36,449 nucleotides of DNA, from positions 1-36,449 of the forward strand of contig JAPPPF010000298.1 of the NCBI GenBank assembly GCA_028817665.1, read 5' to 3'. The DNA comes from Magnetovibrio sp. (GTDB taxonomy: Bacteria; Pseudomonadota; Alphaproteobacteria; Rhodospirillales; Casp-alpha2). Made by a program: the position numbers and the translations under genes. The notes below the pieces were generated by a model that saw only the letters and a program-made list of their open reading frames with translations, ran no database searches and was not told the origin of the DNA. Of the stretch, positions 4,087-23,844 are shown piece after piece (positions within the stretch are counted from its first letter, which is position 1; each line of letters starts with the position of its first letter).

Positions 4087-5925
4087 ATGGGTGGCTGGCA
4101 AGGCAAGGTACTGCGCGTCGATCTGAGCGCGGGCACGACGGCGTCGGAACCGCTCAACCAGGAATGGGCCGACCAGTACCTGGGCCAACGCGGCCTCGCC
4201 TCCAAGTACCTCTACGAGGAAATGGACCCCGCCGCGGACCCGCTCTCGCCGGAAAACAAGATGATCTTCGCCACCGGGCCGCTGACCGGAACCATGGCCT
4301 CGACGGGCGGGCGCTGGTCGGTGGTCACCAAGGGCGCGCTCACCGACGCCATCGCGTGCTCAAACTCCGGCGGCTACTTCGGCGGCGAGCTGAAGCTGGC
4401 CGGCTGGGACATGGTGATCTTCGAGGGCAAGTCTCCGCACCCCGTCTATCTCATGATCCGCGACGACGACGCGCAGATCCTTGACGCCCGCGACTTCATC
4501 TGGGGCGAGACCGCCTGGGTCGCCGAGGACAGCATCAAGGCCAAGCATCAGGACCCGCTGATCCGGATCGCCTCCATCGGCCGCGCCGGCGAGGCGCGGG
4601 TGCGCTTAGCCGGCGGCCGGCACGCCCAGGCCCCGGCCGCCGGGCGCGCAGGCGGCGGTGCCGGGCGGGGCGCGAAGAACCGGAAGGCGGTGGCGGTGCG
4701 CGGCACCACCGGCGTCGCCGTCCACGACCCGAAGCGGTTCATGCAGGTGGTCGGCGAGATGCGCCAGAAGCTCGATACCCACGCGGCGCGCGAGCGCCTC
4801 GGCCGGGTCGGCACCCACGCCATGATGGACAACACCAATGCCTACGGCTCGCTGCCCACCCGGAACGGCCGCGACGTCCAGTTCGACGGCCACGACGCGG
4901 TCAAGGTGAAGACCGCGCACACGCCGAGGCGCTCGGACCGCAAGGCCAACGTGATCTCGTCGAAGGCCTGCTTCAGCTGTTCCATCGGCTGCGGGCGCAT
5001 CGCCAAGATCGACCCCGAGCACTTCACCGTGGTCGAGGAAACGGCGAAGAAGCGCTACGGCAACGCCATCGGCGGGCTCGAGTACGAGAGCATCTTCGCC
5101 CTCGCCCCGATGGTCGGCTGCTCGGACCTGAGCGCCGCCACCTACGTCAACGCGCTCTGCAACGAGGACGGCATGGACCCGATCTCCTTGGGCGGCTCCA
5201 TCTCGGCGGCCATGGAGCTCTTTGAGGAAGGCGTCATCACCGAGAAGGAGACTGGCGGCATCAAGCTCAACTTCGGCAACGCCGAGGCCATGTGCCGGGT
5301 TGCCGAGGAAGCGGCCCGCGGCGAAGGCTTCGGCGCCGAGGTCGGACTGGGCTCGAAGCGGCTCTGCGAGAAGTACGGCCGCCCGGAACTGTCGGTTTCC
5401 GTGAAGGGCCTGGAATTCCCCGGCTACGATCCGCGCGCCATGCAGGGCATGGGCCTCGCCTACGCCACCTCGAACCGCGGTGCCTGCCACATGCGGGCCA
5501 GCCCCTTCGTCGACGACTTCTCCCACGTGCGCCCCGACGGCAAGGCGCAGATCGTCAAGGACACCCAGGACGCCAACGCCGGCAAGGACGCCACCGGCCT
5601 CTGCGCCTTCGCCGGCAACGCCTGGGACTTGAGCGATTACGCGGCGCAGATCGACGCCGCCTGCGGCGGCGGCTGGGACGCCGAACGCCTGACCCAGACC
5701 GGCGAACGAATCTGGACGTTGGAGCGCCAGTTCAACATGCGCGCCGGCCTGACCAAGGCCGACGACACCCTGCCCGAGCGCTTCCTCAAGGAAGCCGCCA
5801 AGTCCGGCGTCGCCAAGGGCCGGGTCACGGAACTCGACAAGATGCTGCCGGAATACTACGAGATCCGCGGCTGGACCGCCGACGGCGTGCCGACCAACGA
5901 GACCCTGGACCGGATCGGGCTCTGA
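4087..5925 (+). CDS. Aldehyde:ferredoxin oxidoreductase (AOR) family tungsto/molybdopterin enzyme, with an anomalous internal stretch
   Basis: MGGWQGKVLRVDLSAG start after a GAGGAGG ribosome site; ATGPLTGTMASTGGRWSVVTKGALTDAIACSNSGGYFGGELKLAGWD; CFSCSIGC cluster motif; residues around 4582-4683 do not fit the family. Confidence 0.88.
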   Translation: MGGWQGKVLRVDLSAGTTASEPLNQEWADQYLGQRGLASKYLYEEMDPAADPLSPENKMIFATGPLTGTMASTGGRWSVVTKGALTDAIACSNSGGYFGGELKLAGWDMVIFEGKSPHPVYLMIRDDDAQILDARDFIWGETAWVAEDSIKAKHQDPLIRIASIGRAGEARVRLAGGRHAQAPAAGRAGGGAGRGAKNRKAVAVRGTTGVAVHDPKRFMQVVGEMRQKLDTHAARERLGRVGTHAMMDNTNAYGSLPTRNGRDVQFDGHDAVKVKTAHTPRRSDRKANVISSKACFSCSIGCGRIAKIDPEHFTVVEETAKKRYGNAIGGLEYESIFALAPMVGCSDLSAATYVNALCNEDGMDPISLGGSISAAMELFEEGVITEKETGGIKLNFGNAEAMCRVAEEAARGEGFGAEVGLGSKRLCEKYGRPELSVSVKGLEFPGYDPRAMQGMGLAYATSNRGACHMRASPFVDDFSHVRPDGKAQIVKDTQDANAGKDATGLCAFAGNAWDLSDYAAQIDAACGGGWDAERLTQTGERIWTLERQFNMRAGLTKADDTLPERFLKEAAKSGVAKGRVTELDKMLPEYYEIRGWTADGVPTNETLDRIGL

Positions 5926-22185: not shown

Positions 22186-23844
22186 TCAAACTCTCTTCCA
22201 GTCGAAATCGGGCTTCGAGCCCGACCCGAAGCGCTTCAGAGCGCCCTCCTCCCCGACCGCGTTGGGCCGGTTGAAAATCCAGTTCTGCCAGGCCGACAGC
22301 CGGCCGAACACCTTGGTCAGCATGGTCTCGGCGCCGGCGAAGCGCAGGTTCGCCTCGAGGCCGGTGAGCGCGTCCGGCGACAGCGCCGCGCGCTCCTCGA
22401 TGGCGATGCGAATCTCGTCGTCCCAATCGATGTCGTCGGGGGCGAAGGTGACGAGCCCGGCCGCCTCGGCGTCGAGCGCGGTGAACGGCTCGCCGGCGTG
22501 GCGCGCCAGCTCGGCCAGTTTCTCCGCGTCGCCGGCGAACCGGAGCGCCAGGCGCGAGGAGCCGCTGATCGTCTCGAGGGGCCCGAAGTTCATGTCGGAA
22601 AGCGCGATCGCCGTCGGCCGCCCCTCCTCCTCCGGCAGGTCGAGCATGTAGCTGCGGTCGGCGGCGAGCGCCAGCTCGTAGAGCGTGCCAGCGAAGCACG
22701 AGCCCTCGTCGATCAGCGCGAACAGGCTCCTCGACGAGACATCCAGCCGGGCCAGGGTCCGGCGCAGCATGCCGATGACCTCACGGACGAACCAATCCCC
22801 GGCGTTGGCCGCCAGCGCCGCGTCGGCGGCCAGCACCAGGGCCGCGTCGCCTTCCGTCCTGAGCACGATGACGCCGGCCTCGGCCTCGTTGGTGCGCAGC
22901 ATGAGGATCGCGTCGTCCAGTTCGCGGGCCATGGCCAGCGGCCAGAAGTCCATGCCCTGGGCGCGGATCGCGCCGGCGTCCGCGGGCACGGGTTCCGTCG
23001 GCGCGCGCACCGTCAACGTCGCCGTCCGCGCCGCCCGGTCGACGGCCGCGTCGACAAAGGTGTAGTGGTATCCGTCGGCGTCGGCGCGGCGCGCCAGGGG
23101 CGTCACGGCGACGCCCTCGGCGGCTGGCGGCGCCGGGCGGGCGGCGGCCAGATCGGCGGCGCGGGCCCTCACCCGGTCCATGAACTGTTGAGGCGGCGCG
23201 GTCTCGTCGACCAGCCCCCATTCCTTGGCGCGGCGGCCGCGCACCCCTTCCTCGCTGGTGCAGAAGACGTCGGCGAGGTCGCGGCGCACCCGGCGCTTGT
23301 CGACGACCCGGGTCAGCCCACCGGTGCCCGGCAGCACGCCCAACAGCGGCACCTCGGGCAGGCTGACGGCGCTGGAGCGGTCGTCGACCAGCCAGATCTC
23401 GTCGCAGGCGAGCGCCAGCTCGTAGCCGCCGCCGGCGGTGGTGCCGTTCAGCGCCGCGATGTAGGTGACGCCGGAGTGCCGGCTGGTGTCCTCGATGCCG
23501 TTGCGGGTCTCGTTGGTGAACTTGCAGAAGTTGACCTTCCAGCCGTGGCTCGATTGGCCCAACATGTAGATGTTGGCGCCGGCCGAGAACATGCGGTCCA
23601 GCGCGCTGGTGACGATCACGGCGCCGACGCCCGGGTGCTCGAAACGGAGCCGCTGAAGCGCGTCGTAGAGCTCCATGTCGACGCCGAGGTCGTAGGAATT
23701 GAGCTTCAGCTTGTAGCCCGGCCTGAGCCCGCCGTCCTCGTCGACGCCGAGGGTCAGGGTGGCGACGCCGCCGTCGACGGTGAGCGTCCAATGCCGGTAG
23801 CTGGCGGGATCGCGGTCGTAGACCACCAAGTCTTTTGTTGTCAT
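22186..23844 (-). CDS. boxC: 2,3-epoxybenzoyl-CoA dihydrolase / benzoyl-CoA-dihydrodiol lyase
   Basis: 552 aa crotonase-type: LKLNSYDLGVDMELYDALQRLRFEHPGVGAVIVTSALDRMFSAGANIYMLGQSSHGWKVNFCKFTNETRNGIED; directly upstream of boxB. Confidence 0.93.
   Translation of the reverse strand: MTTKDLVVYDRDPASYRHWTLTVDGGVATLTLGVDEDGGLRPGYKLKLNSYDLGVDMELYDALQRLRFEHPGVGAVIVTSALDRMFSAGANIYMLGQSSHGWKVNFCKFTNETRNGIEDTSRHSGVTYIAALNGTTAGGGYELALACDEIWLVDDRSSAVSLPEVPLLGVLPGTGGLTRVVDKRRVRRDLADVFCTSEEGVRGRRAKEWGLVDETAPPQQFMDRVRARAADLAAARPAPPAAEGVAVTPLARRADADGYHYTFVDAAVDRAARTATLTVRAPTEPVPADAGAIRAQGMDFWPLAMARELDDAILMLRTNEAEAGVIVLRTEGDAALVLAADAALAANAGDWFVREVIGMLRRTLARLDVSSRSLFALIDEGSCFAGTLYELALAADRSYMLDLPEEEGRPTAIALSDMNFGPLETISGSSRLALRFAGDAEKLAELARHAGEPFTALDAEAAGLVTFAPDDIDWDDEIRIAIEERAALSPDALTGLEANLRFAGAETMLTKVFGRLSAWQNWIFNRPNAVGEEGALKRFGSGSKPDFDWKRV

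Follow-up and report, generated by a model that had tools for sequence, protein, structure and literature searches.

Within the aldehyde:ferredoxin oxidoreductase (AOR) gene of a draft metagenome bin, we found a run of about 85 bases in which most conserved A and T positions have been changed, T to G and A to C, with G and C positions left intact. We consider this run most probably (at about 85%) a base-calling artefact that was fixed into the consensus rather than a product of biology, judging from the substitution spectrum and from comparison with related sequences. The window, that is, the whole stretch of DNA analysed (36,449 nucleotides), is one entire contig (C277) of the draft genome G000, which totals 3.21 Mb on 312 contigs at 85.7% completeness and 3.3% contamination. 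Its closest relative among the genomes compared, G003 of the same genus, served as the sister genome. The gene and the affected region are as follows.

4087..5925, + strand: AOR gene (aldehyde:ferredoxin oxidoreductase, a tungsten enzyme of the AOR/WOR family), 612 amino acids (Pfam, phmmer and sister orthologue)
4598..4682, + strand: altered stretch, residues 171-199, most conserved A/T positions changed by T>G or A>C, G/C intact and no indel (codon alignment, Fisher test, genome scan and 99 AORs)
4612..4672, + strand: core of the altered stretch, with 14 conserved A/T positions changed (codon table)

The encoded protein matches both AOR domains, AFOR_N (PF02730, 5.7e-65) and AFOR_C (PF01314, 3.8e-122), which together cover it entirely. 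Its best match among solved AORs is 8c0z_A (phmmer, E = 3.6e-219), and it shares 87% identity with its orthologue in the sister genome over the full length, with the altered stretch counted in.

Motif loss and substitution spectrum

In a codon alignment with six close relatives, the stretch is gap-free and both flanks agree well, with the first change at 4598 and the last at 4682. An earlier note on this DNA had located the disturbance at 4582-4683; the stretch does lie there, with bounds a little narrower than proposed. The translation given in that note, IGRAGEARVRLAGGRHAQAPAAGRAGGGAGRGAKNRKAVAVRG, is accurate, as is the family sequence that it gave, which equals the consensus of 99 distinct other AORs. 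Each residue of the motif R-A-A-G-R-S-G-V-G occurs in 99 of these 99 proteins. The AOR as sequenced lacks the cofactor- and Mg-binding motif RAAGR(S/G)GVG...GSKN and reads PAAGRAGGG...GAKN, a failure that most likely sits in the sequence data and not in the gene. As had been noted, the length is unchanged; there is no frame shift, the codons pairing one to one with those of the relatives (codon table); a frame shift followed by a compensating shift is ruled out by the same one-to-one alignment. At 85.9% GC, 4598-4682 is among the GC-richest parts of the window, and this high value is partly produced by the recoding itself.

We counted substitutions at columns identical in the six relatives, comparing 4582-4698 with the rest of the gene. 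Inside this interval, T was replaced by G at 10 of 14 columns (4 kept) and A by C at 6 of 15 (9 kept), compared with changes at 2 of 47 G/C columns (G>C at 1 of 29, with 28 kept; C>G at 1 of 18, with 17 kept). No A>G, T>C, A>T or T>A change was found at these columns, and there were no transitions. Over the rest of the gene, T>G was seen at 0 of 181 invariant columns and A>C at 3 of 243 (together 3 of 424). Inside and outside therefore differ at A/T columns (Fisher test, p = 5e-19), with no difference at G/C columns (p = 0.34). The leaning towards T>G and A>C that had been suspected from likely codons alone is thus real, and stronger than that first reading could reveal: 16 of 29 invariant A/T columns changed, every one of them by T>G or A>C, and these account for 16 of the 18 changes at invariant columns. 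Of the conserved A and T positions in the core, only two A's survive, at 4622 and 4628, each preceded by another A.

The pattern extends to the protein. Ala, Gly and Arg codons that contain neither A nor T have survived, and those for Met, Asn, Asp, Lys, Ser, Val, Cys and Leu were mostly lost. It is thus largely base composition that decides which residues survive, and selection on the protein would not act in this way. Three changes lie outside the pattern, namely G>C at 4634, the third-base A of a TTA codon (4608) and C>G at 4692, and each may be ordinary divergence. The change at 4634 is the sole one in the core that falls at an invariant column and is neither T>G nor A>C. The TTA codon, previously singled out as unusual, is indeed present at 4606, where relatives carry TTT, TTC or TAT.

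Occurrence elsewhere in the genome and family

To place the stretch in its genome, about 464 kb of the draft assembly was compared, codon by codon, with 1.24 Mb of the sister genome, covering 110 orthologous genes and 36,816 codons. The stretch was the sole outlier among the 110 genes: of the 16 differences at first and second positions within 25 codons, 15 were T>G or A>C (binomial p = 4e-11, against 4.5e-4 for the next best of 33,782 scan windows), and a separate nucleotide scan also put it first. No second such stretch was found in the 110 genes and 36,816 codons compared, and the window's two other GC-saturated spots (7237 and 23065-23180) do not carry the signature. The runner-up in the codon scan lies at L227:5733-5845 (contig C8 of the same genome), where 9 of 16 first- and second-position differences were T>G or A>C (p = 4.5e-4 for 5771-5845 of C8); it is not significant given the 33,782 scan windows tested.

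The stretch stands equally alone in its protein family. In the 99 other AORs, the number of T>G or A>C changes at conserved columns reached at most 1 per 30 codons, compared with 11 here. The earlier note had held that orthologues with the same segment would speak against its suspicion; none of the 99 AORs has the segment, and neither does any of 384 further genomes of the class, which were searched for the core 30-mer with up to two mismatches.

A probable base-calling fault and rival processes

The earlier note had offered two options, one of them a biased sequencing or consensus artefact, and it is this one that the computed spectrum favours: the changes are of the dye-channel type, spare G and C, and affect one genome at one spot. 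If so, the gene itself probably has an ordinary AOR motif. The base calls would have lost the signal that separates T from G and A from C, turning most T's into G and most A's into C, and the contig consensus would have retained the faulty calls. In two-channel chemistry, C and T each carry a dye of their own, A carries both and G is unlabelled (PMC11140927), such that loss of the T dye alone yields exactly T>G and A>C. A loss of this kind may be the instrumental cause, with T going dark and being called G, and A keeping its C label and being called C. The spectrum of the stretch is also compatible with four-dye Illumina chemistry, in which A and C share a laser, as do G and T, and confusions within these pairs are the commonest HiSeq errors (PMC3334598). 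G is, in addition, reported to be overcalled upon signal dropout (PMC8002175). Because the recoding is identical on both strands, the degraded ends of forward reads could match those of reverse reads and be joined to them.

Several observations bear on this reading. Like Illumina dye-channel errors (A/C and G/T confusion, and G overcalling in two-channel chemistry), the changes are substitutions only, comprise T>G and A>C, and are clustered at a GC-rich spot. They are of these two types at 16 of the 18 changed invariant columns, include no indels and are absent from the independent sequences of relatives (all of other species), as an artefact would have it. The loss of the cofactor-contact Arg in a protein that is otherwise conserved, and the draft state of the genome, in 312 contigs, also count in its favour. 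Counting against an artefact, recurrence elsewhere in the assembly, although not a required feature, was not seen in the part compared; with no second case in 110 genes and two GC-saturated spots, the fault is not frequent in this assembly. A survey of public data did not see clear dye-pair associations (PMC8002175), and the three changes outside the pattern count against an artefact as well. An 85-base error run with clean flanks is also unusual for a consensus: documented Illumina errors mostly occur singly or at the ends of reads and are outvoted, whereas here they would form a run of about 85 bases in a finished contig.

As an artefact, the stretch is of interest only as a warning: where a gene of a metagenome bin seems to lack a conserved motif, base-call recoding alone can be responsible. 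Because neither T>G nor A>C can introduce a stop codon, the reading frame remains open and the gene passes annotation pipelines. Such stretches can be recognised simply by looking for T>G together with A>C at columns that are otherwise invariant.

It is unlikely that the stretch instead reflects real, very recent and clustered A:T to C:G hypermutation, whether by 8-oxo-dGTP misincorporation (mutT-like) or in an error-prone repair tract, in a gene now inactivated or drifting. Mutators that cause A:T to C:G transversions are known (mutT), and on double-stranded DNA theirs is the base change seen here. The observed strand-symmetric spectrum is the one expected of such a process, and a normal second AOR paralogue (on contigs C73 and C19) might make loss of the altered copy tolerable. 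However, mutT-type changes are genome-wide and sparse, whereas those seen here are packed into 85 bases, with 16 of 29 A/T positions changed without transitions and the rest of the gene almost free of such changes. Neither the rest of the window nor the 110 genes show a mutator spectrum of this kind. We know of no process that packs 16 such conserved-position changes into 85 bases and leaves the genome otherwise quiet, and a bacterial mechanism that converts almost all A:T pairs to C:G across roughly 60-85 bases of one gene, sparing G:C, strikes us as very unlikely. Were the stretch real, it would point to an unknown, very specific local mutator.

Highly improbable is a template switch or gene conversion, in which a nearby inverted copy or another gene would have supplied the sequence of the stretch. 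The feature that suggests the former is an inverted repeat with arms that codon shuffles reach in only 2% of cases.

4610..4643, + strand: perfect 11-bp inverted repeat with a 12-nt loop (sequence scan and recoding script)

When the corresponding stretch of the six relatives was recoded by script (T>G and A>C), however, arms of 9-13 bp appeared, compared with 5-6 bp natively, and the repeat can thus be understood as a by-product of recoding the sequence that relatives carry. Rewriting would have hit G/C columns too, yet 45 of 47 are intact. The genome offers no good donor (best match 81% over about 60 bases), and the AOR paralogue is ruled out as a donor, as its motif is normal.

Adaptive divergence, in which a functional AOR variant would have gained a new cofactor-binding loop, is more improbable still. 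The reading frame is open and the length is the same, but an open frame is no evidence where the changes can never create stop codons. Moreover, the residues kept are those with GC-only codons and not the functional ones, Arg has become Pro at the cofactor contact, and none of 99 relatives carries the segment. Finally, a diversity-generating retroelement target, which localised substitutions without indels might bring to mind, has a negligible probability, as these elements alter only A-templated positions, to any base, whereas here T is hit as well as A and each is replaced by a single kind of base, and no reverse transcriptase match (PF00078) was found in the 85.7%-complete bin.

Cofactor site and gene surroundings

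The note had also expected the lost motif to matter for cofactor binding, and the structure of the Aromatoleum AOR backs this view: Arg181 hydrogen-bonds the tungsten cofactor, and the backbone carbonyl of Ala182 helps to bind the Mg ion that bridges both pterin phosphates (PMC10413684). These residues align to residues 183-184 here, of which Arg is replaced by Pro (through G>C at 4634) and Ala is kept. The pair and the gene that follows AOR are located as follows.

4633..4638, + strand: site of the Arg-Ala pair through which relatives contact the W cofactor and Mg (alignment to 8c0z; PMC10413684)
5925..6173, + strand: gene for a small ThiS/MoaD-like protein (Pfam ThiS, 1.9e-6)

The protein resembles AorB of Aromatoleum aromaticum (PDB 8c0z) in family, length, both Pfam domains, and the FeS-cysteine and DxxGLC motifs. 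It differs from AorB in its altered residues 171-199, among them the Arg of the cofactor-binding RAAGR motif. The FeS-cluster/pterin motif CxxCxxxC ... DxxGLC is present as CFSCSIGC and DATGLC (translation, aligned to 8c0z). If the altered stretch were real, the enzyme would probably be unable to hold its cofactor.

The ThiS/MoaD-like gene lies directly 3' of AOR, and its start codon shares one base with the AOR stop codon. The second AOR paralogue of the genome (57-60% identical) is present as pieces on two contigs (C73:4880-5636, L256; C19:1-1108, L001) and keeps the normal motif. A contig break apparently splits this paralogue, with one piece ending at about residue 254 and the other beginning at about residue 251. 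Within the AOR gene of the window, positions 5032-5055 form a further divergent and variable segment, which reads VEETAKKR here and SSDDNKQK in the sister genome; its changes are mixed, and it looks like an ordinary surface loop.
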